Below are positions 11,069 to 36,070 of a DNA stretch of 64,000 nucleotides, in pieces; the stretch's first letter is position 1, and the number at the start of each line of letters is the position of its first letter. The notes beneath the pieces were generated by a model that did no database searches, was not told the origin of the DNA, and saw only the letters and a list, made by a program, of their open reading frames with translations. The translations under genes and the position numbers were made by a program. This stretch comes from Clostridiales bacterium (GTDB taxonomy: Bacteria > Bacillota > Dethiobacteria > Dethiobacterales > Dethiobacteraceae): the NCBI GenBank assembly GCA_018335855.1, contig JAGXRM010000027.1:62001-126000 (forward strand). The letters run 5' to 3'.

Positions 11069-11512
11069 TCAGGCCACGGGCAAAACAATTTTCCTGCCAG
11101 TTTTTCCTTTGCGAAACAGTGGATGGAAAAGTACTTCATGATTAACACGCCACAAATTGTCCTGATAGCGAAGAGCCAGACGCATACAATGGTCGGGAAA
11201 CCGCTCATAGCGCAACAGCGAGGCAACCTGATAATAAAACTCCCGTCCTTCCCCGGTCAAAGCCAACTGCTCAGGTACTAACATCTCATTTTTCTTTAAG
11301 TCCGCAAAAATCCCCTGAACTTCAAAACTGTGAACACCGGTTGACCCCTTATAGAAATCATATCGGATACCGGGACGTTCGCCCGGCGCACTACTCGCCG
11401 TAGCCAGAAACAAAAAATTATGTATCGTTCGGGTGCGGTCGAAGTTGAATGTGGCTAACAATTTTAATAACAGCACATGGTGCAGCGTATATGTAAACGA
11501 GTAGACATTCAT
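11069..11512 (-). CDS. Hypothetical protein, possible winged-helix fold
   Basis: I do not recognise this 147-residue protein with confidence. It has no signal peptide. A segment FDRTRTIHNFLFLATAS, then YDFYKGSTGVHSFEVQGIFADLKKNEML, then LTGEGREFYYQV, resembles the layout of YwgA/SocA-like small winged-helix proteins. In those an N-terminal helix pair is followed by a strand-containing wing. The C-terminus is basic (FRKGKTGRKIVL). Its stop codon directly abuts the stop codon of the convergent M23 peptidase gene, so there is no room for a terminator between them. Function unknown. Confidence 0.7.
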   Translation of the reverse strand: MNVYSFTYTLHHVLLLKLLATFNFDRTRTIHNFLFLATASSAPGERPGIRYDFYKGSTGVHSFEVQGIFADLKKNEMLVPEQLALTGEGREFYYQVASLLRYERFPDHCMRLALRYQDNLWRVNHEVLFHPLFRKGKTGRKIVLPVA

Positions 11513-11692: not shown

Positions 11693-12445
11693 CTAGAAAC
11701 CCTGACGTAATATATCCAGCTCCTCAAGAATTCTCTGCAATGCCTGCCCGGCAGAACTGCGAATAACAACCCGGGCTTCTTCATCATACGGAGTCGTACC
11801 GCGATTAATAATCATGAGATTTTTGCTGTAACGGGGAAGGAAGCCTACTGGAGCAACCTGCAAGCTGGAACCGACGACCAACATGCAATCACATTTTAGT
11901 GTTTCACGGTGAGCACGCTGAAAATCATCGGGCATCTCTTCCCCAAATAAAACGACATCTGGCTTTATAACCCCGCCACATTGCGGGCAGTCAGGTTCAT
12001 CCCCACGGTCAAGAACAAGTAAAAGATCTGCCAAGTCATTCTTCTGTCGGCATGACTGGCAAGTCCCTGTTTTAAATGTACCATGCACGTCCAGGACGCG
12101 GCGGGAACCGGCCTGCTGATGCAGACCGTCTATATTCTGTGTAATTATGATTTTTATCCGTCCCCGTTGTTCCAGTTCCGCTAAAACCTTGTGGCCGTCG
12201 TTGGGTTCTGCCTCATTAATAATGGTAAGCAGTGGCCGAATCCTACGGTAAAATGCCCCTGGATCCCGGTTGAAACTATCAATTGTAAAATCTTCAGGGT
12301 CTTCTTTTTCCCAAAGGCCTGTTCCGGGACTGCGAAAATCGGGGATTCCGCTTTCAGTTGAAATCCCAGCCCCTGTGAGAACCACGGCATGACGGGCTTC
12401 TTTCAGTATACGCGCCGCTCGGCGAATCTTCTCATCTAATGACAC
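11693..12445 (-). CDS. cobB: NAD-dependent protein deacylase (sirtuin)
   Basis: This 250-residue Sir2-family enzyme removes acyl groups from lysines using NAD+. The signature motifs are GAGISTESGIPDFR (about residues 24-37), TQNIDGLHQQAG (about 101-112), the catalytic histidine in DVHG, and a zinc site of two CxxC pairs (CQSC and CPQC). VGSSLQVAPV closes the NAD site. Acetyl-CoA metabolism is prominent in this genome, so a role in controlling acyl-CoA synthetases is plausible but not shown. It lies 21 bases downstream of the ComK-like/ComFB gene and is probably co-transcribed with it. Confidence 0.94.
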   Translation of the reverse strand: MSLDEKIRRAARILKEARHAVVLTGAGISTESGIPDFRSPGTGLWEKEDPEDFTIDSFNRDPGAFYRRIRPLLTIINEAEPNDGHKVLAELEQRGRIKIIITQNIDGLHQQAGSRRVLDVHGTFKTGTCQSCRQKNDLADLLLVLDRGDEPDCPQCGGVIKPDVVLFGEEMPDDFQRAHRETLKCDCMLVVGSSLQVAPVGFLPRYSKNLMIINRGTTPYDEEARVVIRSSAGQALQRILEELDILRQGF

Positions 12446-12466: not shown

Positions 12467-13324
12467 TTAATGACGGGGATTATTATTGACGATTTTTACC
12501 GCTTTTGCTAATGCAGTTAAAACATCCACAAAACGCTGTACCTCTAAAAGGTCGGCCTTGGAGTATGTCTCTCCCCGTTGTGTTACCACATAACGGGGTG
12601 GCAGGTCATTTAAAGCTATGGCGACCATATCCAAACGACACTGTTCGCACCGGCATATTTTATTGCTTTCCTCGGCTAAAACTTCATCCAGCCTCTGCGT
12701 TACTAAACCTTCCATCAAATTTCGGAGTTCCATAGTATATACCCCTTTCTCATCCTCTTCACTGTTAATTCCATAGACACCGCCATTTTCCTGCAGAAAA
12801 TTACGTGACAGGAAAGACTGCGCCAGAAAAAGCTGTTGTTTAAAATCCATGGTCTGGCAGCACTCATCAATGAGTATTTTCTCCAAATTTACGCAGGCGC
12901 GCAGTCTGGCACGCACTGTTCGAAAGGACTGTATCACAGTAAGCCGATGATCCCCGTCCAACACCAGACTGCACGGCTCCGGCTCTTGTACCACACCCTG
13001 CACCGAGCGGAGCCTAAAATACCCATACGTCGGATCTCCGCTCACACGGGGTATACGAACTTTTACCGGCACAAAAACCACAAAAGGGGAAAGCACCAGT
13101 GGAACGAGATTCGTCTGCCCGATAAGTGGACCATATTTCCTACGCATATCTTTTACGCTTACGGCAAAAAACTTTGCAAGCCCACCCATAAATGAGCGTA
13201 ATCCCTGGCTCAGCCAGCAGGTCGTTCCATCATTATAATAAATCATCAGCCCCTGTCCCACGCCCTCACGATAATCAGGGAGAAACGCGACAATTTTGGA
13301 TATATCAAAAAATGACAAGCTCAA
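12467..13324 (-). CDS. Apparent ComK-like/ComFB fusion protein
   Basis: This 285-residue protein appears to join two competence-associated domains. The C-terminal about 95 residues match the ComFB family: NLMEGLVTQRLDEVL, then CRCEQCRLDMVAIALNDLPPRYV and a closing helix; the two CxxC-type cysteines are intact. ComFB proteins of cyanobacteria are reported cyclic dinucleotide receptors. The N-terminal about 180 residues resemble ComK in motif order (IVAFLPD, SFMGGLAKFFAVSVKDMRRKYG, LVPLVLSP..VFVPV, a Tyr/Phe pair, then a loop and IQSFRTVRARL), but this is a remote match made by eye. The start is TTG at 13324 with AAGGAGG eight bases upstream; that site lies inside a terminator-like hairpin. A sirtuin gene follows. 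Confidence 0.6.
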   Translation of the reverse strand: MSLSFFDISKIVAFLPDYREGVGQGLMIYYNDGTTCWLSQGLRSFMGGLAKFFAVSVKDMRRKYGPLIGQTNLVPLVLSPFVVFVPVKVRIPRVSGDPTYGYFRLRSVQGVVQEPEPCSLVLDGDHRLTVIQSFRTVRARLRACVNLEKILIDECCQTMDFKQQLFLAQSFLSRNFLQENGGVYGINSEEDEKGVYTMELRNLMEGLVTQRLDEVLAEESNKICRCEQCRLDMVAIALNDLPPRYVVTQRGETYSKADLLEVQRFVDVLTALAKAVKIVNNNPRH

Positions 13325-13330
13325 TAAAAA

Positions 13331-13358
13331 AACCTCCTTACGTTTATGTAAGAAGGTT
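13331..13358 (-). terminator. Intrinsic terminator whose 3' arm contains the ribosome binding site of the next gene
   Basis: A stem of 11 bp with one G-U pair (AACCTTCTTAC / GTAAGGAGGTT on the minus strand) and a 6-base loop is followed by seven U. It terminates the TPR-HTH gene (stop at 13402). The AAGGAGG in its 3' arm is the only good ribosome binding site for the ComK-like/ComFB gene starting at 13324, so folding would also hide that site. Confidence 0.7.
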
Positions 13359-13401
13359 TTTTCAATATATTCCGGTAACCGTTATTTTGTTCCCTTACAT
13401 A

Positions 13402-14547
13402 CTATCCTCCTTTTAAATATGCAACCATATTTCTATATGCTTTCTCGTCAATAAGTAACGCGCTGTTAATTTCTTTAAATTTCCCAGATATACTCCCCGG
13501 AGAAACCAGGTATTCTTCAGCCAGTTCTTTTTGCGTCAGGTCAAGGTAGTGGAAACGAGCCAGGCTGTATTCCAAAGCAGCGGCCCAAGTCTCTACCTTT
13601 CTGATGGTAGGAGTTTCAGGATAAACTGTATTAATATAGTCCAGCCAAATTGCCTGGACATCATCAAAAAATCCCTCATCGTAACAGTTACTATGACGCA
13701 TATTTTCAATGGCCCGGTCAACTACATCCTGCCATTCCTTCCGCCAAACAGGCATGCGAATTGGATAGCAGGCAAGATCCATTTCTTTTAATTCTCCGCT
13801 TAGGAACACCTGCACTGTTCCGCTCTCCCCCAGATTCTTCAGTTCAATTAGCGCAAGCTGGCGAAAACGTTCTTTAATCCATGGATTCTTAACAAAGTCG
13901 AAAAGTACCTTCTTCTCCCCGTCCCCACCTAATACACCGTAAAAACGCAGAATATCTTCTTTAAATTCATCAGATCTATGGTAAAGACGGTTATTTAAAG
14001 CCTGCCTGAATCCGGCACTGGTCACATACAGATTATTCAATTCTTCCGAACTACCTGAGCTTAACACCCGTTCCATTAGGACATCTTTCTCCGTGTATGC
14101 AGGCAAGTTATCGTAGACTGAGTCTTCATCCATAGCATCGAGCAGTTCCACTGCCTCATATGACATCTCTCCGTCCGGTTCAGCCTGCAGGTAACGCTGC
14201 AAATACTCTCTGGACTTATCCAGGTCTTCGAGCAAACCATAGTTTATCGCCAGCAAAAAATAACAGTCTGCCATCGAGCTGTCCAGAACACTGACAATAT
14301 GCACAAATACCTTGTTGGCTTCTTTTAATCGTCCCAACTTGCTTAGCAAACAGGCAAGATTGTACTGATTGTAAGGGTTGCGTGGTTCCGCTCCTACGGC
14401 ACGCTGAAAAAACAACAGCGCTTTATCCAGTTTATTTTTCTGGTAATTGAACATGCCTTTTTGTAAGTAGTACCCTGCATCCCGCTCAAAGGGTACAACT
14501 TTACTCTTTTGCTCAAGCCGGCTTTCTTTTCTCTTCACGTCTTTCAT
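13402..14547 (-). CDS. TPR-repeat protein with C-terminal helix-turn-helix
   Basis: This is a 381-residue cytosolic protein with a lysine-rich N-terminus and about three tetratricopeptide repeats (residues about 25-145: YYLQKGMFNYQKNKLDKALLFF-type units). A middle region of unknown fold follows. The C-terminal segment LTQKELAEEYLVSPGSISGKFKEI has the spacing of a helix-turn-helix, similar to those in TFIIB-like cyclin folds and sigma/anti-sigma regulators. TPR plus HTH suggests a regulator that senses a protein or peptide partner; this is inference. It sits between the YhaM-type nuclease gene (23 bases upstream) and the ComK-like/ComFB gene. Confidence 0.75.
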   Translation of the reverse strand: MKDVKRKESRLEQKSKVVPFERDAGYYLQKGMFNYQKNKLDKALLFFQRAVGAEPRNPYNQYNLACLLSKLGRLKEANKVFVHIVSVLDSSMADCYFLLAINYGLLEDLDKSREYLQRYLQAEPDGEMSYEAVELLDAMDEDSVYDNLPAYTEKDVLMERVLSSGSSEELNNLYVTSAGFRQALNNRLYHRSDEFKEDILRFYGVLGGDGEKKVLFDFVKNPWIKERFRQLALIELKNLGESGTVQVFLSGELKEMDLACYPIRMPVWRKEWQDVVDRAIENMRHSNCYDEGFFDDVQAIWLDYINTVYPETPTIRKVETWAAALEYSLARFHYLDLTQKELAEEYLVSPGSISGKFKEINSALLIDEKAYRNMVAYLKGG

Positions 14548-14570: not shown

Positions 14571-15545
14571 TTATTCTGCCTTGCCCAAATATACGCTCCG
14601 TTCCAGCAACCGGTCCCAATCCGTCCAACCATTGTCTTTTTCTCCCTTTTTGACCACCAGAGAAAATTGGTTCAGTCTTGCTGACACTAAATCGGCATGA
14701 AATAAAGCATAGGCGGCAAACGTCTTGGGAATCTCCGGAGAACCCCACTCTTTCTGACCATGATGACTGAGCAGCATATGCATAAGCTCCAACCTGTATG
14801 CCTCCGGAAACCCCGGAACCGCCCTTATCCGCTGCTCCAACATTTCCTGACCAATCATAATATGGCCCAAAAGCTTGCCCCGGTCAGTCAGTTCAAATGT
14901 CAGACTCGTACTGTCATACTCCTCAATCTTCCCCACATCGTGGAGCAGTGCCCCGCAGTATAAAAGAGACAAATCCAGTTCGGGATAACCCGCCGCAAAC
15001 TGCCGACAGAGAACCGCGACTTCCAGAGAATGCTCCAGCAACCCACCGACATAATTATGATGCACCGATCGGGCAGCCGGCGCCTTGGTATACCGTTTAA
15101 AAAACTCACTGTCGGAAAAAAACTCCTGCAGTAGTAAAGCAAGGAAGGGGTCACTTACTCCGTCCAGGACTGTCTTCAGTTCCGCCAGCATCTCATCGCT
15201 ACCTGTCGGCGCCACACGCTGAAACCAACCCCGCTCCACCTGGGCCTCTTCCACAGGCTCAATACCATAAACAACCACCTGCGGTCCTTTATACTCACCG
15301 ACTTCGCCCCGAACACGAATAACATCGCCCACCTGAAATACCTTAGCATATTCCATGCCTTTCTCCCAGGCAACAGCCCTGACAGTACCGGAAACATCAG
15401 CTAACTGCATCCTCAAAAACTGCTCGCCGGAACGATTGGGTTGGTTAAACGCCACCAGCGCTTTTTCCGTTACTAAAAACGCTGAACGAACTTGGTCGCC
15501 TACTTTTAAATCCCTGACAAATTGTTTTTCCACAAGTGCCTCCAT
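14571..15545 (-). CDS. yhaM: 3'-5' exoribonuclease YhaM family (OB-fold plus HD domain)
   Basis: YhaM-type enzymes trim RNA 3' ends in Firmicutes. The 324-residue protein has an N-terminal OB-fold (about residues 12-110: LRMQLADVSGTVRAVAW, VGDVIRVRGEVGEY). The HD phosphohydrolase domain follows, with conserved HHNYVGGLLEHS, ALLHDVGKI and SHHGQKEWG motifs, all metal-binding residues present. Length and order match YhaM/Cbf1. It is the first gene of a run with the TPR-HTH gene and lies just downstream of the two small RNA genes, which end in U-tracts of the kind this nuclease family trims. Confidence 0.88.
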   Translation of the reverse strand: MEALVEKQFVRDLKVGDQVRSAFLVTEKALVAFNQPNRSGEQFLRMQLADVSGTVRAVAWEKGMEYAKVFQVGDVIRVRGEVGEYKGPQVVVYGIEPVEEAQVERGWFQRVAPTGSDEMLAELKTVLDGVSDPFLALLLQEFFSDSEFFKRYTKAPAARSVHHNYVGGLLEHSLEVAVLCRQFAAGYPELDLSLLYCGALLHDVGKIEEYDSTSLTFELTDRGKLLGHIMIGQEMLEQRIRAVPGFPEAYRLELMHMLLSHHGQKEWGSPEIPKTFAAYALFHADLVSARLNQFSLVVKKGEKDNGWTDWDRLLERSVYLGKAE

Positions 15546-15617
15546 ACTATTTCTTCTTTACACTATATTCAGCACATCCGCATGATTTCCTCTTTCGACA
15601 AATAACATGAAAAAGAT

Positions 15618-18991: not shown

Positions 18992-21679
18992 CTACTTCTT
19001 AGTTGCTGGGTGAGGAGCGTTTGCAACCGGTGATGACGGATTGTAAATGAGCCCGTCATAAGTTTCTCCATCTCCCAGGCGATCCCAGTTAAAGATATGG
19101 GTGCGCAGGTCGTAATTAATACCGGTCATTGTTGCATAGGGCATTGCCTTGCTGTAGTCCATACCACTGCCGTGGCATGCGCCACAGGTCTGCGCCACTG
19201 TCCGCTTCAGCGATGTGTTGTCCACAGCATTGTACTTGTGAGAATCGTGGCAGGTTGCGCAGCTTATGACTTTACCCTTCGCGGAACGAAGTCCGTCATT
19301 CGCTACGTCAAATGCACCCCAATTTGAAGAGGGAACACCAAGCAGTTCCTGCCACTGCATGCGGTGCTGCTGGCCGATCCAGCTGTTTGTGCGCAGGCTG
19401 CTCGTGTTGATCTCAACATAATCGGTGAGCTTATCGCCGGGTAACATAACCAGGGGAATTGGATCCTGACGGACGCCGCTGGGGTTGCCGGCGTTTAGAC
19501 CAAAGCTGTCAATGATTTTGTTGTTACGTGCATGACAGGCGCCGCAGAGGTCGTTCTGACGGTCAATTGTCAGGCGGGCCGGGTTTACGATGTTCTTTTT
19601 GGTCGGAGCCTGGGCGTGGTTTGCACCAGGTCCGTGGCACGCTTCGCAGGTAATACCGTAGTCGGCAATATGGTTCTTAACACCAGTGACCGGATCGATG
19701 GGTAATAATGTGGGTGCATCATTATAAGCATCCAGATCGAAGCCGGTGCTGTGGCAGCCAATGCAGTTCTGCTGCCAGACTTGTGATGCGGTGTGAGTAC
19801 CCCATGTGGGAGCGGTCCATGAACCATCAGGACCACGATTTCCAGTGTTATACTGGAAGTTAACAAAGAGAACGCCTTCCCTCTTGGCAACAGGAATTCC
19901 GGAAGTATCATATCCTTCATCAACCAGCTTCTGATAGCTAATGGCCGGACGAATCTTCCATTTGTCACCAAAGATAAAGTCAATATCATCTTTATCGATA
20001 TGCACGGAATTAGACACGTTAAGTGTCCCGCGACCTCCGGCGGCAGCTCCTTTGTTAGCATCCCAACCATCATAGAATGACTTGAAGGGTTCCGGGGAAT
20101 CGGGCTGGCCCCACTTGATATCGGGATCGTCAGCCGGACGAGCCTTCTTGGTGTGCAGATGGTCAAGCTGGGTTGCATACTTAGTGTGGCAGCTTGCACA
20201 GGTTGCACCGCCAACGTATTCAGCACTTAACACACCTGTAATCGGGTCACGGGTTGCGCTCAGTGCATCATAGACGCCGGGAGCCAGGTTTGTTTCTTCC
20301 TCGTAATTATGGGTGGATTCAACGTTGGCCCAGTAGCCGTCGTTGCCGTCGCCTTTCTTGTGACAGGCTTCGCAGGTACCCATGTTGGGCTTGCGCTTCA
20401 GGGCGGAGGAACCAGACAGTTCGGTAAGCATGTTTACTGTCCAGCCGTCCACGCCGGCATCTACCAATGTGGTTTCCCAGTAGTCTTTATCGGTACCGTG
20501 GGCCACGTGACAGGTGAGGCAGACAACGCCTCTGGTCAGGCCGGCACCGTTTTGAAACTTCAGGCCGCCAACATCATTGTACCAGTCAAACTCGACCCGG
20601 TGGCGGTAGGCCTTGGAGTAGGAACCGGTCAGTTCACTGCCGGCGTCTGCAATCTGAGCGTTGTAATCAGTGTGGCAGGCGCCGCAGAAATTGTTGATGC
20701 CGCGCTTGTAGGTGACAGATTCTTCTGCTGCCAAATAGTTTTCGATTTGCATGGAAACACGCAGGGATGGGACGAAATCAGCGGTAACTGCGCCTGCCGG
20801 AGCCTCATTAAAACGAATGTAGCTCACGCCGGTGCTGCTATCCACAGTGAAGCCGCCGTATTGCCGGACTCCGCCCACGTAAATCTTCAGGTCCTGGGAA
20901 TAGGGATACCCTTTGATCATGGTGTAGATGTCGTCACCGTTATAAACGGCGTAGGTTACGCTGTCAATCCCAGTCGCAACGGCACCTACAACTTTATTCT
21001 GCTTCTGGACGCCATTGGGATCCGGATGCAGAATGCGGGCGTTGCCGCCCTGGCCGTGCGGGCTGTGACAGCTGCTGCAGCTGAACTCGCCGGTCCAGGT
21101 GCCGAAATCATCGGCTCCGTTTTTCAGCGCGCCGCCGGGAGCGGCATAGATGTTCAGAGCACCTGTGACATTATGATTGGACAGGGATGTTGCCGCGGCA
21201 TTCTGGCCGACCATGAGGCCGAACTTACCGCCGCTGGTAGCTTCCCCTGCCGGGTTAAGTCCTTGGACAACGTTATAGGTGGTTGTTACCGTACCGTCGT
21301 GACAGGCCATGCAGGTCTCATAAATCGAGTACCACTGCAATAGGGCCGCGCCGACGGCGCTGTGGGTGGCATGACAAGAGGCACAAGCGTCGGTATTCTT
21401 GCTGTAGTTGGTGTGAATCCGGTAGCTTGCCGGATCAGCCGCATTCGGCAGATAAATGCCGGTGGGATAAAGGTTGGCATCTTCGCTGAATACAGCGGGA
21501 GTGCCTAAGTATTCGTAACCATCGGTGTAGTCATTCTCCATATCAATGCGGACCTGTTCGGCCATCGCCAGACCGGAGAAAGCTGCCAACACGATGAGGG
21601 CCACGAGTAAAACCAAGCTAAATCTCCTCATAATGGGTCTCTCCTTTTGTGTTCTTATTTTGTTGGTTTTCTTTGCCAT
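18992..21679 (-). CDS. Exported 12-heme c-type cytochrome (cytochrome c554-like motifs)
   Basis: This 895-residue protein carries twelve CxxCH motifs, spread from residue about 100 to near the C-terminus, and would carry electrons outside the membrane. It has a signal peptide (MRRFSLVLLVALIVLAAFSGLAMA) starting at residue 17. The inner ATG at 21631 has its own AAGGAG site and gives a canonical signal peptide; the ATG at 21679 also has AAAGGAGG, so either start is possible. The segment CIGCHSTGFDL...GITCEACHGPGANH resembles cytochrome c554/c'-type proteins. Beta-rich spacers of about 100 residues separate some heme pairs. There is no visible sortase signal or SLH domain. It follows the 7-heme cytochrome gene. 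Confidence 0.93.
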   Translation of the reverse strand: MAKKTNKIRTQKERPIMRRFSLVLLVALIVLAAFSGLAMAEQVRIDMENDYTDGYEYLGTPAVFSEDANLYPTGIYLPNAADPASYRIHTNYSKNTDACASCHATHSAVGAALLQWYSIYETCMACHDGTVTTTYNVVQGLNPAGEATSGGKFGLMVGQNAAATSLSNHNVTGALNIYAAPGGALKNGADDFGTWTGEFSCSSCHSPHGQGGNARILHPDPNGVQKQNKVVGAVATGIDSVTYAVYNGDDIYTMIKGYPYSQDLKIYVGGVRQYGGFTVDSSTGVSYIRFNEAPAGAVTADFVPSLRVSMQIENYLAAEESVTYKRGINNFCGACHTDYNAQIADAGSELTGSYSKAYRHRVEFDWYNDVGGLKFQNGAGLTRGVVCLTCHVAHGTDKDYWETTLVDAGVDGWTVNMLTELSGSSALKRKPNMGTCEACHKKGDGNDGYWANVESTHNYEEETNLAPGVYDALSATRDPITGVLSAEYVGGATCASCHTKYATQLDHLHTKKARPADDPDIKWGQPDSPEPFKSFYDGWDANKGAAAGGRGTLNVSNSVHIDKDDIDFIFGDKWKIRPAISYQKLVDEGYDTSGIPVAKREGVLFVNFQYNTGNRGPDGSWTAPTWGTHTASQVWQQNCIGCHSTGFDLDAYNDAPTLLPIDPVTGVKNHIADYGITCEACHGPGANHAQAPTKKNIVNPARLTIDRQNDLCGACHARNNKIIDSFGLNAGNPSGVRQDPIPLVMLPGDKLTDYVEINTSSLRTNSWIGQQHRMQWQELLGVPSSNWGAFDVANDGLRSAKGKVISCATCHDSHKYNAVDNTSLKRTVAQTCGACHGSGMDYSKAMPYATMTGINYDLRTHIFNWDRLGDGETYDGLIYNPSSPVANAPHPATKK
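21372..21402 (-). repeat. Heme-motif repeat, copy inside the 12-heme cytochrome gene
   Basis: This 31-base stretch encodes part of the first CxxCH motif (Asn-Thr-Asp-Ala-Cys-Ala-Ser-Cys-His) and is identical to the intergenic sequence at 21825-21855. Confidence 0.85.
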
Positions 21680-21824
21680 TCCTATGCACCTCCTTTCTCT
21701 GGCAAAATGGTAACGGCCTTACGGCCGGAAAACCCTGGAATGTCCTGCGGATTGGTTGACAATTGTCCCCGCTTCCGCTACACTATTGATAAATCCGGGG
21801 AATAAAGAGATTAGACGTTGCTTT

Positions 21825-21855
21825 TGACAAGAGGCACAAGCGTCGGTATTCTTGC
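21825..21855 (-). repeat. Heme-motif repeat, intergenic copy B
   Basis: A 31-base exact copy of 21372-21402 lies in the leader of the 12-heme gene, 24 bases past the end of the 7-heme gene. On the minus strand the frame continues as Cys-Gln instead of Cys-His, so it is not a usable heme site. Shorter copy A lies at 18268-18283, on the other side of the lipoprotein/12-heme gene pair. Confidence 0.85.
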
Positions 21856-21878
21856 CCCCCGGATTTTTATGCTTAGTA

Positions 21879-23051
21879 TTAATCAAACGTTATACTGATA
21901 CTTTTTGTAAGACCTTCGCATACCGCTTCCACCGTTACAGTTTCGGAACCCTGAAGCCAGACTAATGCTTTTCCGTCAACGCCGGTTTGCACCGGTTCCC
22001 CCGGTGTCAGTTGTATGCTAAGAGATGAATCCCTGTATAATGTGCCGGAACCGTAAACTACCGCAAAGACCACATCCCGCTCCGACAGCGGTGTCACGTC
22101 TCCGGTAAAGGCAAATGCCTCTATTTCTGCGTCGTCATTTACATACGTGCTTACCAGGAGCAGTTTAGGCACACAGGGTGCGTGGATTCCCTCCAGGAAG
22201 TTATTTCCCGGTGTCCTGCTGTGACAGTCGCTACAGTAGCGACTGGGTTCAGTCTCGTAATGATTTTCCACACCGGCCGGCAGGTTCTGCACAGACACTC
22301 CCAAGATAGTAATTCCGTAGCTGTGGCATGTGAGGCAAAACTGCCTCTGCTCATATTTGTAGTTTATATCCTCAACGGGGCGCGTATAGAAAACCGCGTT
22401 GTTAATAATCTCATCGTCCATGACTCCCAGATACTCTTTAATTAATGCGGCATTTTCCGAGGCGTGCGGTGAATGGCAGTGGGAACAGGACAATTTCCAG
22501 CCGGAAGGTTTTAACCCGCCGGAACTTTTCAGAAAATGGCCGCCATCCACGCCTTCTGCAGTACCCGTATAGAAAGTATTTATATCGGCGGCATTTTCAT
22601 AGCCGGACCCGGTACTGTGACAGTCAAGACACTGCGTGTAGCCGCCAAGCGGGTATTCGCCGTAAACATCGTTATCAACTGTCTCCAGGGTATACTGTTC
22701 TTGGAGTAAAGGACGGTAGTTATACGGAGGATGCACCAGATGGCATGTATTGCATGACAAATTCTCATCGGCGAAATAATGAACCGATTCGCCCTGATAT
22801 TTCACCATTGATGCACGCGTACCGTCGTGACATACCAGGCAGGTTTCCTCAACAGTGGATTCTGTCATGAGACGTATACCGGTTCCCCTGTGAGGAGAAT
22901 GGCAGTTCCGACAGGAATCCTGATTTTTATTAAAATCATGTGGTATGGCTGGTATGCTGGCATACACAGTAACGTAAAAGAACAGAAGCGTAAGCACGAA
23001 TATCATGGCTGTCAAAGAAATAAACGGACTTTTGTCGGTTTGCTTACGCAA
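21879..23051 (-). CDS. Exported 7-heme c-type cytochrome
   Basis: The 390-residue protein has an N-terminal signal or anchor (about residues 12-32) and seven CxxCH motifs between about residues 46 and 280. The first (CRNCHSPHRGTG) and the fifth (CSHCHSPHASEN) are of the doubled-CxxCH type. The C-terminal about 100 residues contain no heme and look beta-rich (DAEIEAFAFTGDVTPLSERDVVFAVVYGSGTLY), like an immunoglobulin-type domain. It may dock to a partner or the cell wall. It lies between the NHL gene (26 bases upstream) and the 12-heme gene, and is an obvious middle carrier in an outward electron chain. Confidence 0.92.
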   Translation of the reverse strand: MRKQTDKSPFISLTAMIFVLTLLFFYVTVYASIPAIPHDFNKNQDSCRNCHSPHRGTGIRLMTESTVEETCLVCHDGTRASMVKYQGESVHYFADENLSCNTCHLVHPPYNYRPLLQEQYTLETVDNDVYGEYPLGGYTQCLDCHSTGSGYENAADINTFYTGTAEGVDGGHFLKSSGGLKPSGWKLSCSHCHSPHASENAALIKEYLGVMDDEIINNAVFYTRPVEDINYKYEQRQFCLTCHSYGITILGVSVQNLPAGVENHYETEPSRYCSDCHSRTPGNNFLEGIHAPCVPKLLLVSTYVNDDAEIEAFAFTGDVTPLSERDVVFAVVYGSGTLYRDSSLSIQLTPGEPVQTGVDGKALVWLQGSETVTVEAVCEGLTKSISITFD

Positions 23052-23077
23052 TTATTACACCCCTTAAGCACCTCTTC

Positions 23078-24067
23078 CTAACGGTATACGTTGACTCTGC
23101 GATTGCTTGTGTCAGTAACGTATATGCGACCCTGATTGTCTATGAAGAGGCCGTTTGGCAGATAAAACTGGCCCGGTCCCTGGCCCATGCCTCCTACAAC
23201 ATACTGGAGTTCTCCTTGTTCATTCATGGCAAGCAATTCATGGGTCAGGTTGTTGACCAAATAGATGACTCCCTGAGGATCCATGGCCAAGCCCCTGGGA
23301 TTAATAAACTGCTTATTTTTGGAGACCCCACTGATATGCCCAATGTATGTCCCCAGTTTGTTAAAGAACTGAATACGGTCGTTTCCGGTATCGCTGACGA
23401 TTACATACTGTCTGCTTACGGTGACAGCATTGGGAGAGCGGAACTGCCCCGGCTCTGTACCTTCGGAACCAAATTCCAGAATCTTCTCCCCCGACTCATC
23501 AAAGACTGAAATTTTGTGCAAGCCAACATCTGCCACATAAATTCTTCCATCATCAGCAAACAGACCGGCTGGACTGCCAAAATCCAACGACGTGCCAAAG
23601 TAGTGCAGGAAATCCCCGTTTGGCGTAAAGACCGAAACATTGTTGTTATACATATCCGCAACGAGAATGCGTCCGTCACTGTCTGTGGCTACACCGTAGG
23701 GAAAGCGGAACTGCCCCGGACTCCTTCCGTTTGAACCAAAAGATAACAAGTGGTTCCCGTTATAATCATAAACCTGTACCCTGGAGTTTCCGGTATCCGC
23801 AACATAAACCCGGTTTCCCGAAACCGTTACAGCCATGGGCTTAGCCATCATCTCATCTGCATTCGGTCCGTAAATAGAGTACAGAAACTGTGGCATTGAT
23901 GTCCCCGGTAAAAATTGCTGTGTCAGGCGCAAAGGATCTCTATTCATTAAATATAAGATTAAGAACAGTATAACCAATGCTATTGTTAGGCCGATTTGTG
24001 CGCGTCTCAGCTTTTCCCTGTCAAAATCGCTAAATGTCCGGCCAAGCCTTCCTGCAAACTCACTCAT
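23078..24067 (-). CDS. Membrane-anchored NHL-repeat beta-propeller protein
   Basis: This 329-residue protein has a short cytoplasmic basic segment, one transmembrane helix (about residues 26-43), and then six NHL-type repeats. These show the recurring pattern GQFxxPxGVAxDxxGRIxVADxxNxRVxVF. The repeats would fold into a single beta-propeller outside the cell. NHL propellers are common protein-binding scaffolds and are found in other cytochrome clusters of anaerobes. It contains no heme motif. Its place between the TPR and 7-heme genes, with 12 and 26 base gaps, suggests a structural role in assembling the cytochrome complex; this is inference. Confidence 0.88.
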   Translation of the reverse strand: MSEFAGRLGRTFSDFDREKLRRAQIGLTIALVILFLILYLMNRDPLRLTQQFLPGTSMPQFLYSIYGPNADEMMAKPMAVTVSGNRVYVADTGNSRVQVYDYNGNHLLSFGSNGRSPGQFRFPYGVATDSDGRILVADMYNNNVSVFTPNGDFLHYFGTSLDFGSPAGLFADDGRIYVADVGLHKISVFDESGEKILEFGSEGTEPGQFRSPNAVTVSRQYVIVSDTGNDRIQFFNKLGTYIGHISGVSKNKQFINPRGLAMDPQGVIYLVNNLTHELLAMNEQGELQYVVGGMGQGPGQFYLPNGLFIDNQGRIYVTDTSNRRVNVYR

Positions 24068-24079
24068 GATTTTTCCCCC

Positions 24080-24775
24080 TTAATTTGTCGCGCGCAACCG
24101 ACTGATAGCGTCTTTTACTGCTTCATTATTTGGATCAAAACCCAAGGCGGCCTGATACCGGATTAGCGCCTCATTGTTCTTCCCCTGCGCTTCATAAACC
24201 TCACCCAGACTCAACAAAATTTCAATGGCACCCGGCCGTAGGCTGTAGGCTATTTCCAGCGACTCTGCAGCCTTTTCGAGTTGTCCGTTTTTATAAAACG
24301 CGATGCCCAAGTTCATGCGTGTCGCATAGTCACGTGGCGAAAGGGTCGTTGCATGCTGAAAAGAACGGATTGCCAGTTCATACTTTTCAACCTGAAGATA
24401 AGTCAGCCCGCGGTTATAATAAGCGGGAAAATGCTTTTCATCCAGTTGGGCAGCTTTATCATAGTTGGTAAGGGCCTGGTTGTAATCCCCCATTTGGAAA
24501 TACGCCCAACCCAGTGCTACTAAGTTTTCCACATTGTCCGGGTCAGCCGTAACCCTTTGCTTGAGCGCTTCGAACTGCTGCATATAAAACGGGTCGGCAT
24601 TAAATCTCTCCCAAAAAAATAATTTACCGATCCCCCAGCCAATGCTAGAAACAACCAGTGCGGTAACAATTAGTATCGTCCATGCGTATAACGGTGCAAC
24701 CTTTTCCTTGTTACGGTTTTTCTTTACTTCTCCAGCATAAAAATCCATTGCTGTCTGATGTACGTTTTCAGTCAT
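24080..24775 (-). CDS. Membrane-anchored TPR protein
   Basis: A 231-residue protein with one transmembrane helix (about residues 30-52) and four or five tetratricopeptide repeats (about 85-225) with the usual LGWAYFQMGDYNQALTNYDKAAQLD pattern. The TPR array would lie outside the membrane. NrfG/CcmH-type TPR proteins help deliver apocytochrome c to heme lyase, so a role in maturation or assembly of the neighbouring multiheme cytochromes is plausible but not proven by sequence alone. It lies between the NapC-like gene (22 bases upstream) and the NHL gene (12 bases downstream). Confidence 0.88.
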   Translation of the reverse strand: MTENVHQTAMDFYAGEVKKNRNKEKVAPLYAWTILIVTALVVSSIGWGIGKLFFWERFNADPFYMQQFEALKQRVTADPDNVENLVALGWAYFQMGDYNQALTNYDKAAQLDEKHFPAYYNRGLTYLQVEKYELAIRSFQHATTLSPRDYATRMNLGIAFYKNGQLEKAAESLEIAYSLRPGAIEILLSLGEVYEAQGKNNEALIRYQAALGFDPNNEAVKDAISRLRATN

Positions 24776-24797
24776 TTGTGTTTACCCCCGGCAGTTT

Positions 24798-25925
24798 TTA
24801 GTAGATTATATGGCATCTCCCGCAGTAGTTGCTGCCATGGCAGCGCAAGCACTCATACCCGTATTTCTGTCCATTTACATTTGTTGGATGCACAGCCTGC
24901 CACCCTTGTTTGTGTTTTTTATAATGGCATTGGGAACAAAATACCCTGGAAAATGGCGGGTCTTTTACGGTGTCCAATATGGCACGGTTAAAATCATGGC
25001 ATACATAGCAACCGAATTTTCCCTGGGTACGGGCCTTAGTAGCATGCATGCCTCTCCAGAGCTGTGTGTGCCCTTCAGGACGCTCCAGATGGCAGTCTCT
25101 GCAGAATATGTTGTTCCGTGCGTACTCTCTCACCGGATGGATGCCATAGGCTAGCATATCCGAATCTTCTATTGCCCCCCTTGTCCAGGAGTGACATCGG
25201 TCACAGGAGAGAAGGTCATTGTATGCTTGTAAACCGTGCTGAATTGTAAACGTTTCTTCCACATGTGATTCGGGAAAATATATATCCTTGTGACAGGCGG
25301 CGCAATCGAGAGTTGCGCGACGCAATTGATGACACTCAATACAACCACTCATTGAAAGGTTGCGATTTTCGTAGCTCATTTGAGACATAGAAAACCTGCG
25401 GGTCCAAATATTAACGTCAACAGAAAGAGCCATTTGCCGACTAGCGATGTTGGCGTGGACCACACCTTTGTGGCAGGACATGCAGTCTACCCGGACTTTT
25501 TCGTGGTTTTTGTGGGGGACAATGAGGTCGCCCGAAGGTGACATCTCCCGGTTTAATGCGTGGCAGTTGGTACAAGATTCGGCGGACATTTGCTCCCGCA
25601 TGGCAATGGGCAAATAGTAGGTGTTTGTCACATACTTATAGGCCATTTCAGCGAGGCTGACCTGAAATCTGATGACGCCGTCGAAGCCGGGGCCCTCGTG
25701 ACAAGTGACACAATCGGTGCGCTGGTGAGCCGATGCTTCCCAGGTACGGACATGGGGCACCATAACATGGCAGAGGCCGCAAGATTCGGGATTTCTGTAA
25801 TCCTGACTGTACACCAGCACGATAAATAACAGTAAAACGGCCATTACTGACGCAACAGCCCTTCGCTTGATTCGGGGGTCCCGTCCGTCAGGAAACTTGA
25901 ATTTAAACGGTTTTGGCTGGCCCAT
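24798..25925 (-). CDS. Membrane-anchored 12-heme cytochrome, NapC/NirT-like N-terminus
   Basis: This 375-residue protein has a cytoplasmic basic start, one transmembrane helix (about residues 24-41) and then twelve CxxCH motifs in the remaining 330 residues, an average of one per 27. The first two pairs (CGLCHVMV and CVTCHEGP) with the nearby HxxxxxxH elements resemble the NapC/NirT quinol dehydrogenase family. The rest is an extended multiheme tail. Such a protein could take electrons from menaquinol or another membrane donor and hand them to the 7- and 12-heme proteins. It is the first gene of the redox operon. NapC itself has four hemes, so this is either a fusion or a distinct large relative. 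Confidence 0.9.
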   Translation of the reverse strand: MGQPKPFKFKFPDGRDPRIKRRAVASVMAVLLLFIVLVYSQDYRNPESCGLCHVMVPHVRTWEASAHQRTDCVTCHEGPGFDGVIRFQVSLAEMAYKYVTNTYYLPIAMREQMSAESCTNCHALNREMSPSGDLIVPHKNHEKVRVDCMSCHKGVVHANIASRQMALSVDVNIWTRRFSMSQMSYENRNLSMSGCIECHQLRRATLDCAACHKDIYFPESHVEETFTIQHGLQAYNDLLSCDRCHSWTRGAIEDSDMLAYGIHPVREYARNNIFCRDCHLERPEGHTQLWRGMHATKARTQGKFGCYVCHDFNRAILDTVKDPPFSRVFCSQCHYKKHKQGWQAVHPTNVNGQKYGYECLRCHGSNYCGRCHIIY

Positions 25926-28009: not shown

Positions 28010-28677
28010 TACAGTTTCACATCCTCCCTAATCATTTTCCTCGGCCCACCGGAGTGGGATGTTGACCAGTCTTTGGGAGGCTTGACTTCTTCGAGGGCGG
28101 ATAGTTTGTCAAATTTCATGAGCCGCTCGACTATCAGGTGCCAGCCACAGTCTGTCTCTTTACTGACTTCACACTTGCCGTCTTGGGAACCGCCGCAGGG
28201 GCCGTTAAGCATGCTCTTGGAACAGCGGGCAATGGGACAAATGCCCATGGTCTCTTCTAATACACAGTTCCCGCAGCCCAGGCAGTTTTCCACCCATACT
28301 CCCTGTTGAAAGGGCATACCCATAAAGGTGGTGTTAATGCCGGGCAGGGTGCGCATGTCTTCGTAGTGCATATTCATGGTCTGTACACCGACGCCACAGG
28401 CCAGGGAAACGATAACGTCGGCATCTTCGATTAACTTGCGTCCAGCTTCCAGATACTCGAACTCACATTGTCTTTCAATGGTGTGGCTTTTTACTTCCAC
28501 AGGCTTGCCGGCGCGTTTGCGGGCTACGGAAATAGCTAATGCTGTTTCCTTGGCTTCTTTATCGCCGCCTGCCATACAGACAGTGACACATTCACCGCAA
28601 CCGAGGACAAGAATCTTCTCGAAGGGTTCTACAGCTTTAATAATTTCCTGTAGGGGTTTGCGTTCACCGACGATCAT
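28009..28677 (-). CDS. metV: MetV, zinc/Fe-S partner subunit of methylene-THF reductase
   Basis: This 222-residue protein has the methylene-THF reductase C-terminal family signature. One cysteine region contains CGECVTVCMAGGDKEA; the second is WVENCLGCGNCVLEETMGICPIARCSKSMLNGPCGGS, with many cysteines suited to Fe-S and zinc binding. In acetogens MetV passes electrons to MetF. It is directly followed by metF and preceded by the flavin/ferredoxin/MvhD fusion gene with a 4-base overlap. That order suggests electron flow from the fusion to MetV to MetF, as proposed for the Moorella MetVF-HdrABC-MvhD complex. Confidence 0.93.
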   Translation of the reverse strand: MIVGERKPLQEIIKAVEPFEKILVLGCGECVTVCMAGGDKEAKETALAISVARKRAGKPVEVKSHTIERQCEFEYLEAGRKLIEDADVIVSLACGVGVQTMNMHYEDMRTLPGINTTFMGMPFQQGVWVENCLGCGNCVLEETMGICPIARCSKSMLNGPCGGSQDGKCEVSKETDCGWHLIVERLMKFDKLSALEEVKPPKDWSTSHSGGPRKMIREDVKL

Positions 28678-30755
28678 TCGCTTTCACCTCCCCCACCATT
28701 TAAAACATGATTGATTTTAGTCAGGAAACCTTCTGCTACCGGAGCGAAGTTACGAACTTCATCCAGGGAAAGGGTGAGATGTTCCACACGGTCTTTTTCC
28801 AGACCCAGTTGTTCAAGAATTTCCTGGGCACGGCCTACCCGTTGTGAAGCCCACTTGCTTACATTCTGGTAGGTGCATTCTTCTTCTTCACTGCAACCGG
28901 CCACGAAAACGCCTTCAGCGCCCAGGTCGAACGCCTCCAGGATTTTTGCCACTTCCACTTTGGCCACACAGGGGACACGTACTATAGCCAGATTGGTTGG
29001 GCGACCGTTATTGATATAGTTGAGGAAATCACGCTCGGCAAACGCGCCGTAGCTGCAACAGAAGACGACGGTAGCCGGACCGTTTTGGGCGGCCAGTTTT
29101 AATGCATCTTCCATCTGATCTAATGCGTGCTGGGCGTAATGGTCACGGAAGCGAATCGCGCTGGCCGGACAAATGCCGACACACAGCCCACAGGCCTGGC
29201 ACTCCTCATTGCGAATGGTGAAGACACCGTTCTCATCAATGTGGGGTACGTCGTAGGGGCAGGTGCGCAGACAAGTCAGGCAGACGGCACAGATGTCATC
29301 GATACATTCGGCACCGGCGGCACAGTCCATACAGCGGCGGCTTTCGCAAAGCGCCATACGCTCATCATAGCCGATTTCCACATGGTCATTGTGCTGAGCA
29401 CGGGTTTGGGCAGGGAGAACAGGCACATGAATTCTGTCAATGCGCTTTACTTTCTCCACCGTGGATTCCGAAAGATCATTAAAGGTTGTAAACTGGTCTG
29501 CGAGGTTTGCATCAAAGGGCACATTGTCCAGGAAGCTCTGTACGGCCAGAGCTGTTTTACGTCCTGTGGACATGGCCTTTACAGCGGAACCGGGACCGAA
29601 GACCAATTCACCGCAGGCAAACACGCCGGGGCGGGTAGTCTGCATAGTCCGGGGATTGTAGTTGAGAATTCCTCTGTCTGTTAGTTCAATGCCAAAGTCT
29701 GTCAGGTAAGACAGATTGTCGTTACCCTGCCCGATGGCGAAGATGACAACATTGGCTTCAATGATGTTCTTCTTGTCACCCATTTTAGGGTTAAAGCGCT
29801 TGTGCTCATCAAAGACAGAGAGTACTTCCTGTACTTCCATGCCGGTGATTGTGCCGTCATCAGCAGTGATAATCTGCTTGGGACCCCATGCGGGGAACAT
29901 GATGACGCCTTCTTCCAAAGCTTCTTCGATTTCCCATTCGAAGGCGGGCATTTCGGTACGACACTCAAGGCATGCCAATTGCACGCTTTCTGCGCCACAA
30001 CGAACTGCGGCACGGGCCACGTCCATGGCTACGTTACCGCCGCCGACGACAAATACGTGACTGCCCGGCTCAAACATAAAGTTATTATATTTGGCTTCGT
30101 TAAGGAAGGGAAGCGCCAGCATTACGCCTTTGGCATCGGAACCGGGAATGGGAATGCCTTTACTTGTGGGCAGTCCCATGGCCAGTACAATAGCCTGATA
30201 GTCATTGGAAAGTTCATCAATGGTAAAATCTTTGCCTAATTCGACGCCGGTACGGATTTCCACGCCAAGCTCGGCGATGCGGGAAACATCGTTGCGCATG
30301 GAATCCATGGGCAAGCGGTAATGGGGTATGAAGTTAGTGATGGCACCGCCCGCTTCCGAGGAACGTTCAAAAACTGTTACGGCAAATCCCTTTTGTACCA
30401 AGTCTTTCGCCACTGTGAGGCCGGCAGGACCGCCTCCCACAACGGCTACTTTTTCAGTACGGGTTGCCTGAGCTTTATTCACTGTAGGCCAACTGCCGTT
30501 CTCCACGGCAAAGCGCTTTAACGCACGGATAGAAACCGCTTCGTCAACATCTTTGCGGCGGCATTCCGTCTCACAGGGATGGGCACAGATGGTACCGCAG
30601 ACGGAAGGCATGGGGTTGACCTCGCTGATAATCTCCAAAGCCTTGTCGTAGTTGCCGATAGAAATCTGACGCACGTATTCCTGAGCGTCCTGATGAATCG
30701 GGCAACCGGCCTGGCAGGGAGGATACTGCGGGACTGTCCCTTTATTGTTATTCAA
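28674..30755 (-). CDS. Fused flavoprotein/ferredoxin/MvhD electron-transfer protein
   Basis: This 693-residue protein combines three modules. Residues about 1-450 form a GltD-like NAD(P)H/FAD oxidoreductase: N-terminal Cys-rich CQAGC..CGTICAHPCETEC, FAD site VVGGGPAGLT, second nucleotide site VVGGGNVAMD, and GQG/GEL closing motifs. Residues about 475-535 carry a 2[4Fe-4S] ferredoxin (CLTCLRTCPYD, CQACGLCVGICP). The last about 145 residues are an MvhD-like domain (VVFCCSYGAFAE, VPCVAKVEV, GVFVAGCSEEEECTYQ). In Moorella, HdrA and MvhD are separate partners of MetVF. A fusion immediately upstream of metV-metF suggests the same coupling in fewer polypeptides. No HdrB/C genes are visible in this window. 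Confidence 0.9.
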   Translation of the reverse strand: MNNNKGTVPQYPPCQAGCPIHQDAQEYVRQISIGNYDKALEIISEVNPMPSVCGTICAHPCETECRRKDVDEAVSIRALKRFAVENGSWPTVNKAQATRTEKVAVVGGGPAGLTVAKDLVQKGFAVTVFERSSEAGGAITNFIPHYRLPMDSMRNDVSRIAELGVEIRTGVELGKDFTIDELSNDYQAIVLAMGLPTSKGIPIPGSDAKGVMLALPFLNEAKYNNFMFEPGSHVFVVGGGNVAMDVARAAVRCGAESVQLACLECRTEMPAFEWEIEEALEEGVIMFPAWGPKQIITADDGTITGMEVQEVLSVFDEHKRFNPKMGDKKNIIEANVVIFAIGQGNDNLSYLTDFGIELTDRGILNYNPRTMQTTRPGVFACGELVFGPGSAVKAMSTGRKTALAVQSFLDNVPFDANLADQFTTFNDLSESTVEKVKRIDRIHVPVLPAQTRAQHNDHVEIGYDERMALCESRRCMDCAAGAECIDDICAVCLTCLRTCPYDVPHIDENGVFTIRNEECQACGLCVGICPASAIRFRDHYAQHALDQMEDALKLAAQNGPATVVFCCSYGAFAERDFLNYINNGRPTNLAIVRVPCVAKVEVAKILEAFDLGAEGVFVAGCSEEEECTYQNVSKWASQRVGRAQEILEQLGLEKDRVEHLTLSLDEVRNFAPVAEGFLTKINHVLNGGGGESE

Positions 30756-30779
30756 TGACTTTTCCTCCTTACTGCAGCT

Positions 30780-31571
<792 letters not shown>

Positions 31572-31596
31572 CTACTCTACCTCCCTTTATTTCGGA

Positions 31597-31644
31597 AAGA
31601 GGGCGCTCCAAGCGAACGGCTACGCAGCTTATGAACGCCCTCTT
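31597..31644 (-). other. Intercistronic hairpin between acsD and acsE
   Basis: Arms AAGAGGGCG (minus-strand 5') and CGCCCTCTT pair around a 30-base loop. Only three U follow, so it looks more like an mRNA processing or stability element than a full terminator. Confidence 0.5.
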
Positions 31645-31676
31645 AGCAGATAATTCAATTGTTTTTTATTTGAGAA

Positions 31677-32657
31677 TTACTCGTCGAAACTGGTTTTAAC
31701 CATCAGCTCTTCAATGTTTTGCTTAATCAGGGTCGCAGCTTTGGGATGGCGCATGACCACCACATCGATACCGGCCTGCAGCAGTGCCATAGCTGTGGTT
31801 GCTTCCCACAGAATACCACGGGTTTCCTGTTCGCCCCAGGCAGGGAAATCGGCGGCGGAGGCATTGGCTTCCTTGGTACGCCATACTTCAAAGCCTACAT
31901 TGCCGATCATCGGCATACCGAGCATATTGTCACCCTGCAAAGCACCATTGCGGGCCCGCTCCATGATGGAGTAGCCGTATTCCACACCGTAGCCCAGGGC
32001 TGCGATGGTGGGGTCAATGACGATACGGTTAGCAGGCAGGTTCATATCGGTAATCAAAATGTTAAGCTGCTTGCAGATATTGATGTCGATTGGCGACTGG
32101 GCAATAATATTGTGTTTATGAACCATACACGCCGCAGTCAGAGACTTATAGTTATCCTGCTCGGCAACGCCAAGTAGCAGGTTCTCGCCGGCTGCAGTTT
32201 CTGCAACCAAAGGTAGGACGAGATTATCCTTTTCCGGTTTGCCGCAGCCGATAACAACCAGCGGGCAGCCTACGGCAGCCAGCACATCTTTTACAACTTT
32301 GGCGCAATCCTCCGGAGAAGCATCTTTGATATCGGGGTCAGCACCTTTAAAACGGAGAACGATAAGGTCAGCACCGAACTCCTCCACACATTTTTTCGCC
32401 CAGGCTGCCGGATCGTTCCACACGTCTGCGTAGAAAGGCTTAAAGCAATCATTCCAATCGGTGGGTTCTACGTCCCAAATCTCCAAAGCGACCACAGGAC
32501 GGTTTGGAATGTCTCCTTCAAAATGAAGGAAGGGTAAGGCAGCTTCGCCACCTACGGTGATTGTATAGGCACGGGTGCCTCCCTGCTCTTTTGTCGCGCC
32601 GAGAACCACTTCGCCTACTTTACTTCTATACTTTTCTTTCACTGCGTTAAAAGCCAT
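31677..32657 (-). CDS. acsD: Corrinoid iron-sulfur protein, small subunit
   Basis: AcsD forms the corrinoid/Fe-S protein with AcsC, the methyl carrier between AcsE and acetyl-CoA synthase. The 326-residue subunit is a TIM barrel (CdhD family): [24 protein letters not shown] at the start, [28 protein letters not shown], and the C-terminal [15 protein letters not shown]. Length is close to the Moorella subunit. It starts five bases after the end of the AcsV gene and is followed by acsE after a hairpin. Confidence 0.94.
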
Positions 32658-32661
32658 GAGG

Positions 32662-34578
32662 TTACTCTCCTTTCTGATCGTTATTTGCTACCACCGACGG
32701 AAACAGGCTCATATCCGTATGGGGCAAAAAGAGCGCCGATACGAATTCATCCATAAAATCATTCCCGACGGATAGTTCAAGATAAGTCATTTTTTTACCC
32801 AGTTCCTGTGCTTCTCTGTAGGCATCCTGCGAAAGCAGGGCAAGCCTGGCTCCCTTTACGGAAGAGTTGCCGATAAAGACATACTTTTCCGGAGGCAGAT
32901 CAGGAAACAGCCCAATCGTGATGGCATCGCGAATATTGATGTAGTTGCCGAAACCACCGGCGATCAGGACTTTGTCAATCATTTCTTCTTCAAGCTGCAC
33001 CGCTTTGAGCATACTGCGGATGCCGGCATAAACGGCTCCTTTGGCGCGGAGCAGGTTTTTAATATCGTTTTCGGTAATGATAATGTCTTTGCCGCATTCC
33101 GTCACATCGCCCCAGACAAGGACAAACTCCCAACCATCATCTCCCTCTCGCATACGGGGAGTATTAATATCGGTTTGCAGTTTGCCTGCTCTGTCAATAA
33201 TGCCAACATCGCGGAATTTGGCCAGACAGTCGATAAGCCCGGAACCACAGATTCCCATGGCTCTCGATTTACCGATGGTGCTTACTTCCACCTCAAACGT
33301 TTCAGAGTCAATCCTGACATACTCGATGGCACCTTTCATCGCACGCATGCCAAAGGTAATGCCTCCCCCTTCAAATGCGGGGCCCGCTGAACATGAAACG
33401 GAAACAAGCCAGTCCTGGTTGCCAAGCACCATTTCCCCATTGGTTCCGATGTCAATAAAGAGGACAATCTCTTCTGCCTTTGCCATGTTGGTGATTAACG
33501 TTCCGGAGACAATATCTCCGCCAACATAGGACGCAACAGACGGGAAACAGGCAACATACGCGCTGGGATTAATCTTTAAACCAAGCTCTTCCGCTTTAAC
33601 CGGCGGGGTGACTGACGCTAACGGGATATAAGGTTCCAATCGGATATACTTAGGTGTCAGGCCCAGGAACAAGTGGGTCATTGTGGTATTACCGGCCACC
33701 ACCGCAATATGGACGTCATCCTCGCTGACATGGCTTTGCGACAATAACTCGTCAATCAGCTGATTAATGGTGTTGACAACAGCCAAATGAAGGTCGTTTA
33801 GACCACTATCATCCGAGGCGTGTATCATCCTGGTTATCACATCGTCCCCGTAACGGGCCTGCTTATTGTATGTCCCCTTTTTACCCAGCGTCATTCCGCT
33901 TTCTAAGTCCAGCAGATAAACGACGACTGTGGTTGTACCGATGTCTATGGCGAGGCCATAGGATGGCTTCTCGGCATGGCCTGGTTCCAAATGAACGATG
34001 TCTGCACAGCCGTTGAGCTGTGTGACAGTAACGGTCACCCGCCAGTCACCTGTGCGGAGTGTATCAGCCAACCCCCGAAGCGTATGAAGTCCGATATGAA
34101 TGTCACCGCATTCCATTTCGTTGCGTAATGCAGCCTGCAGGCGGTTAAGATCGGAAACGTTTTCCGTCAGCGACGGTTCGCTCAGAGTCAGCTTAACCTT
34201 ACGGCAAAGCGGTTTGAAGTCATACCCGGCCGCTAAATCCTCGTCCCTCTCCATCAGGATGTCTTTTTCCTCAAGGAGTACTTGATGCTCATCAAGTCGG
34301 GAATCCTTAGGAATATCGATAACAACATTATCGTTAACCGTAGACTGACAGGCTAATACCAAACCGGCTTGCTTGGCTCTTTGGGAAATGCTGCCTGTAC
34401 TCTTCACATTGACCCGGCCGTCTTTTACTTTTACCAGACAGCGCCCGCAGGTACCGTCCCCGCCACAGTTGCTCTTCAGTTCCACACCAGCCAATGTGGC
34501 GGCACGGAGAAGGGAAGTGCCGGGTTCTACATGGGCAATCAGATTATCAGGAAAAAACAGAACCGAGACTTTTTCCAT
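32662..34578 (-). CDS. acsV: Corrinoid activation/regeneration protein
   Basis: AcsV (RACo type) re-reduces the corrinoid protein when its cobalt is oxidised to Co(II), using ATP and an electron donor. The 638-residue protein has an N-terminal [2Fe-2S] ferredoxin domain ([14 protein letters not shown] plus Cys in LACQST). A linker follows, then an ASKHA ATPase-like domain with [13 protein letters not shown] (about residue 209) and [12 protein letters not shown] (about 385). The C-terminal DUF4445 motif GGFGNYINI near residue 555 closes the family pattern. It sits between acsC and acsD, as is usual in acetogens. Confidence 0.94.
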
Positions 34579-36060: not shown

Positions 36061-36070
36061 AAATACTGAA

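Follow-up and report, generated by a model that had tools for sequence, protein, structure and literature searches.

The genes and sites considered here all lie on the (-) strand of the window, by which we mean the whole stretch of 64,000 nucleotides that was analyzed. The central one is a ComK-like/ComFB fusion gene encoding 285 amino acids (12467..13324), an open reading frame with orthologues in L002, L003 and L004. It starts with a TTG codon at 13324, ahead of which stands the strong Shine-Dalgarno sequence TAAGGAGG (-12.3 kcal/mol), and the orthologue of a sister species, 69% identical over residues 2-285, has ATG at the equivalent position. On the basis of profiles and a structural model, the protein begins with a domain that we assign to the ComK superfamily and that has a LytTR-like predicted fold (residues 1-160, 12845..13324). 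This is followed by the long C-terminal helix of the same domain and a disordered linker (residues 161-197, 12734..12844), with pLDDT values below 50 at residues 175-190, and finally by a ComFB domain (12467..12733), recognized by profile, fold and start scan, which may also exist as a separate product of 88 residues from an internal ATG at residue 198.

Upstream, the fusion gene adjoins a gene for a TPR protein (13402..14547), as the ComK-like gene does in the family loci examined, and two genes upstream lies that of a YhaM-type exoribonuclease with OB fold and HD (14571..15545), identified by profile and locus comparison; the succession of YhaM exoribonuclease, TPR protein and ComK-like gene is kept throughout the family. 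The row is headed by an AGGA-N17-GAAT site (15567..15591), and 10 of the 12 family loci examined have a site of this type no more than 100 nt ahead of yhaM. Judged from sequence, the YhaM-TPR-fusion row would form an operon with its promoters. The next gene downstream encodes a Sir2-family deacylase (11693..12445), recognized, like the TPR protein, by profile and locus comparison. A protein of 147 residues (11069-11512) also adjoins the locus across the family and has no match in Pfam or NCBIfam. Elsewhere in the window, inspection of the translations by eye points to an apparent CO dehydrogenase/acetyl-CoA synthase (Wood-Ljungdahl) gene row (28674-40254), to multihaem cytochrome-like proteins with many CxxCH-type motifs (18992-25925) and to ClpC- and McsB-like genes (41487-45101). 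In Bacillus, ComK is removed by a protease that includes ClpC.

The leader of the fusion gene contains a hairpin (13325..13364) that has the Shine-Dalgarno sequence in its 3' arm and a UACAUA motif on the loop side. The 75-nt stretch folds with -23.1 kcal/mol (z -5.8), and the hairpin is present in all 17 family leaders examined, with UACAUA invariant. A covariance model built for it finds one strong match in each genome having the ComK-like gene, upstream of that gene; the remaining matches are near chance, no other gene was found under the hairpin and Rfam has no match for it. Covariation in a MAFFT alignment is modest, given that 9 of 500 shuffles reach its score and some rows are misaligned, and the hairpin is thus supported mainly by its folding energy, the invariant UACAUA and the specificity of the covariance model. 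Since it hides the Shine-Dalgarno sequence, translation of the fusion is probably held back until the hairpin is opened.

The ComFB domain and its putative expression signals

Residues 201-283 span positions 1-83 of the 83 in the Pfam profile PF10719 (E 8.5e-24; 83.9 bits against a cut-off of 25), and the C-terminal ComFB features that a preliminary description of this DNA had considered clear therefore lie above Pfam's curated cut-off. The domain also matches the NCBIfam equivalog of Bacillus ComFB, but with a score below the cut-off of that model (50.8 vs 120). The solved structure of ComFB from B. subtilis, 4wai, matches the C-terminal domain both by sequence (E 5e-8) and by predicted structure (Z 9.0), and the resemblance extends over the whole domain, including zinc ligands, dimer residues and predicted fold. 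By alignment to 4wai, with the ligands taken from the literature (PMC4381287), the Cys-X-Cys-X2-Cys segment formed by C224, C226 and C229 (12638..12655) corresponds to three of the four residues that hold zinc in B. subtilis ComFB, whereas the fourth place is here taken by a histidine, for which the sequence offers His285 (12470-12472) as a suitable residue. The CRCEQC segment noted in the preliminary description is thus present, but it contains three cysteines and not two as stated there. Five residues of the B. subtilis dimer, N4, E7, D33, N40 and Y46, align with N202, E205, D232, N239 and Y245. A difference in arrangement is that comFB belongs to a comFA-comFB-comFC operon in B. subtilis, where its deletion leaves DNA uptake unaffected (PMC4381287), whereas here it is fused to a ComK-like domain.

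The predicted ComFB domain also shares its fold with the cyanobacterial CdgR/ComFB proteins (Slr1970, Alr3277), as seen in the match to c-di-GMP-bound CdgR, 8hja (Z 8.8), although these proteins are longer and lack the zinc cysteines in the aligned segment. In Synechocystis, ComFB is required for DNA uptake and binds both c-di-AMP and c-di-GMP, at micromolar level (PMC12313861), while the CdgR of Anabaena, which is of the ComFB type, is active when ligand-free, partly via the transcription factor DevH (PMC13075795). Binding of cyclic dinucleotides has been published for cyanobacterial ComFB/CdgR members only (PMC12313861; PMC13075795). A further likeness is that the cyanobacterial protein works with a transcription factor; there, however, the partner is a CRP-family protein acting in trans, and here it would be the ComK-like domain in cis.

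The linker carries additional signals at the DNA level. When the genes of G000 and G001 are compared over linker residues 176-198, identical codons are used for 13 of 13 conserved residues (Met excluded), while the rest of the gene reaches about 54%, a conservation that we attribute to the AGGA-N17-GAAT site lying in this coding DNA. The site, AGGAAAATGGCGGTGTCTATGGAAT (12768..12792), is a putative SigH-type promoter for ComFB within the coding sequence of the fusion, its position being conserved at equal distance upstream of ComFB in three genomes with the fusion (G000, G001 and G003) and in two with unfused genes (G012 and G016). In seven further genomes, too, it precedes a stand-alone comFB gene. 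Altogether, AGGA and GAAT spaced by 17 or 18 nt occur in 12 of 22 comFB upstream regions, compared with 0.2 in shuffles, and each of the other spacings from 8 to 29 occurs in none or one of them. SigH promoters of B. subtilis have this AGGA-N17-GAAT geometry, and a SigH gene is found in the window genome, so that SigH may be used at the linker promoter. Single sites of this kind are meaningless unless their position is conserved, because their number in the window is near chance (seven seen vs about four expected); a strict version of the pattern has four matches in the whole genome, too few to inform.

Downstream of this site, the internal Shine-Dalgarno sequence AAAGGGG (12742..12748) stands 8 nt ahead of the ATG at 12731-12733 and ranks second best among the 25 in-frame starts. 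The linker start is kept as AAAGGGG..ATG in G000 and G001 and as GGAGGAGG..TTG in G003, ranking in the top two or three in-frame starts of each gene, whereas G011 has lost both promoter and internal start. Since the linker holds a promoter, a ribosome-binding site and an ATG, ComFB may also be made alone. We consider it somewhat probable, from these conserved signals, that three of the four fusion species produce free ComFB in addition to the joined protein.

Relation of the N-terminal domain to ComK and LytTR

The motifs that had led to comparing the N-terminal half with ComK, the competence transcription factor that switches on DNA uptake in Bacillus, are indeed found in the protein, namely LP at residues 15-16, AKFFAVSV and RTVRARL. 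Direct scans of Pfam, NCBIfam and PADLOC gave no match for the domain, and the ComK profile PF06338 matches neither this domain nor any other member of the window family (f1), even at E 10. Most of the 59 nearest genomes, however, encode the N-terminal domain as a protein of its own, and some of the stand-alone relatives, from the outer families of the class and from other Bacillota, lie above the Pfam ComK cut-off; among 21 relatives, 8 match Pfam ComK at E values up to 10, several of them over the cut-off. The domain is best considered a member of the ComK superfamily and not a ComK orthologue, because only these more distant stand-alone relatives pass; identity with the nearest member of the class above the cut-off is less than 30%.

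Profile comparisons then connect the domain to ComK in two steps. The profile of the window family matches that of the stand-alone relatives with a probability of 99.9% (E 9e-34), and the latter matches true ComK of Bacillales with 96.1% (E 3e-9). A combined profile of window family and relatives reaches true ComK with 96.4% (E 1.3e-9), whereas the reversed-sequence control gives 0.5%. When the window family is compared with ComK directly, as the preliminary description had proposed for the N-terminal residues, the match is weak (33%, E 4e-4), even if its register is unchanged, and the proposed relation is sustained by way of the two steps. A tblastn search with the window protein leads to a plasmid protein of Peribacillus asahii (E 7e-5) that lies above the ComK cut-off; a search of plasmids found two Peribacillus ComK-like genes, and a search of phages found no relative. 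On this evidence the N-terminal domain very probably belongs to the ComK superfamily.

The predicted structures are consistent with this assignment. AlphaFold (AF2) models of the window domain (pLDDT about 97) and of true ComK (pLDDT 90), for which a sequence search of the PDB found no solved structure, agree in how their elements succeed one another: three strands come first, then two helices, two further strands, another four strands and lastly one long helix. They also have the same neighbours in the PDB, and the agreement in both respects answers the structural comparison that had been suggested for the two proteins. The best PDB matches of the window model are all LytTR DNA-binding domains, with Z 6.7-7.9 over 85-104 residues, values that remain below the tool's caution level of 8 while the next unrelated match has 3.4; those of the true ComK model are again LytTR domains, with Z 6.8-7.6 and the next unrelated rows at 3.3. 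It is therefore quite likely, as far as models can tell, that the window domain and ComK both have a LytTR-like fold, such as that of ComE and AgrA. The window protein differs from these in having no response-regulator receiver and in showing no significant sequence relation: LytTR (PF04397) gives no Pfam match to the domain and hhalign probabilities of 0.3-15%. Homology in sequence between ComK and LytTR was rejected as profile comparisons are not significant; since sequence profiles do not link the two, their relation is that of a common predicted fold, which does not imply descent.

These structural matches would equally suit a domain of LytTR type sharing no descent with ComK. Given that the true ComK model yields identical LytTR matches, the fold cannot separate ComK from LytTR, but sequence profiles side with ComK (96%) over LytTR (15% or less) and render this alternative highly improbable. 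The preliminary description had named two outcomes that would tell against ComK, namely that neither profiles nor structure match it, or that some different family is clearly matched; the domain reaches ComK through the profile chain and shares its predicted fold.

The targets of the domain may differ from those of ComK, since no exact AT-box (AAAA-N5-TTTT), the recognition site of ComK, is found in the few promoters examined, those of 15 family ComK-like genes and those at comEC in the window genome. The distribution of AT-boxes at ComK-like genes and comEC loci is without pattern. Outside the window family, SOS-box-like sites (CGAAC-N4-GTTCG with at most one mismatch) precede 9 of 23 stand-alone ComK-like genes, compared with 0.05 in shuffles, the scan having covered the regions upstream of these genes at L049-L066 and L091-L103. 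These sites suggest that relatives of ComK are under the control of LexA in anaerobic Bacillota; none was found upstream of the ComK-like genes of the window family.

Distribution and origin of the fusion

A survey of the class, a check of the kind suggested in the preliminary description, recovered the two-domain order in 4 of 97 genomes (G000, G001, G003 and G011). All four belong to one family, which includes MAGs labelled Dethiobacter, and represent three genera, so that the fused reading frame is not an assembly artefact. Together with the PF10719 match, the profile chain and the predicted fold, these data bear out the original proposal of a ComK-like domain fused to ComFB, and it is virtually certain that the N-terminal domain and ComFB are joined in one protein. 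We would class the protein as a new fusion that joins known families and whose ComK part is divergent, distinguished from ComK itself by its ComFB part and by the hairpin ahead of its gene; no earlier report of a ComK-like/ComFB fusion was found in the literature searched.

In relatives, the two genes occur in various arrangements. A separate comFB follows the ComK-like gene in G016, the two are on different contigs in G012, comFB is located elsewhere in the genome of G005, and eight genomes are without comFB; many members of the window family lack any ComFB. The frames of comK-like and comFB overlap in G009 (L006, around 1432-1484), one base out of frame at a run of seven G. Of note, one G fewer would join these frames, and sequencing error, a real split or length variation would all fit. 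Because relatives carry comK-like and comFB as separate genes, some of them adjacent, the window gene is the product of gene fusion, which would have occurred by merging of neighbouring genes in one branch of the Dethiobacter-type family. The tree of the N-terminal domain groups the four fusions with G005, a topology that fits one fusion and one loss (in G005) but has limited support. The ComFB part of the G011 fusion (L004) lies on a very long branch and has an altered middle segment, yet its Cys and His ligands are kept.

Proposed function of the joined protein

The cyanobacterial ComFB/CdgR data, combined with the presence in the window genome of two c-di-AMP cyclase genes, nine GGDEF matches and ComEC, lead us to propose that the ComFB half relays the cyclic-dinucleotide state. 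Our main reading, to which we give a probability of about 0.5, is that of a two-domain regulator in which a cyclic dinucleotide on ComFB alters the ComK-like half, the hairpin exerts restraint and ComFB is also made alone. The N-terminal ComK-superfamily domain would bind DNA, and the flexible linker connects it to a ComFB domain of the zinc type, whose dimerisation would make the whole protein a dimer. Binding of a cyclic dinucleotide to the ComFB domain would change the binding of DNA or partners by the ComK-like domain, and a single chain would then do what CdgR does on DevH in Anabaena. The hairpin over the ribosome-binding site would restrain the fusion gene, and free ComFB would also arise from the SigH-type promoter and the start in the linker. 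Control of the ComK-like half by cyclic dinucleotides, drawn by analogy from the cyanobacterial proteins, is a tentative element that we place just short of even odds. DNA binding, ligand binding, coupling of the domains and a role in DNA uptake are all properties that we infer for the window protein.

The fusion might instead be a by-product of merging genes, free ComFB being what matters and the joined protein having no new function. This is compatible with the conservation of the AGGA-N17-GAAT promoter, Shine-Dalgarno sequence and start in three of the four fusions and with the DNA-level constraint in the linker, as well as with the frame offset at the G7 run of G009 and the relatives without ComFB. 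However, the linker frame stays open in four species of three genera that are only 48-69% identical, and in G011 the frame is still fused after loss of promoter and start; we thus regard the by-product explanation as rather unlikely, if far from negligible. Doubtful, too, is the possibility that ComFB sets the activity of the ComK-like half as a zinc/redox sensor or a plain dimerisation module and not as a sensor of cyclic dinucleotides. The conserved three cysteines and terminal His of the zinc site, and the zinc-binding, obligate dimer formed by ComFB of B. subtilis (PMC4381287), would agree with such a role, but zinc in the latter protein is apparently tightly held and probably structural (PMC4381287), and cyclic dinucleotides, c-di-AMP as well as c-di-GMP, are ligands of two homologues from cyanobacteria (PMC12313861).

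A bolder extension of the two-domain regulator, and in our opinion an improbable one, would see ComK and its relatives as a divergent branch of the LytTR fold, which here became a single-chain competence switch responding to cyclic dinucleotides, with a second, SigH-driven promoter and start inside its coding sequence that yield free, dimerising ComFB. If this were true, one gene would give rise to a regulated activator and to a free sensor able to dimerise with that activator.

The present findings extend the reach of ComK well past Bacilli, into anaerobic Bacillota, and the models suggest a predicted fold for ComK. ComFB has so far been a protein of the competence operon to which no target had been assigned. 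The naturally occurring fusion with a regulator of the ComK type names a testable partner, with ComFB acting on ComK, and regulators of the ComK type are likely to be the partner of ComFB.
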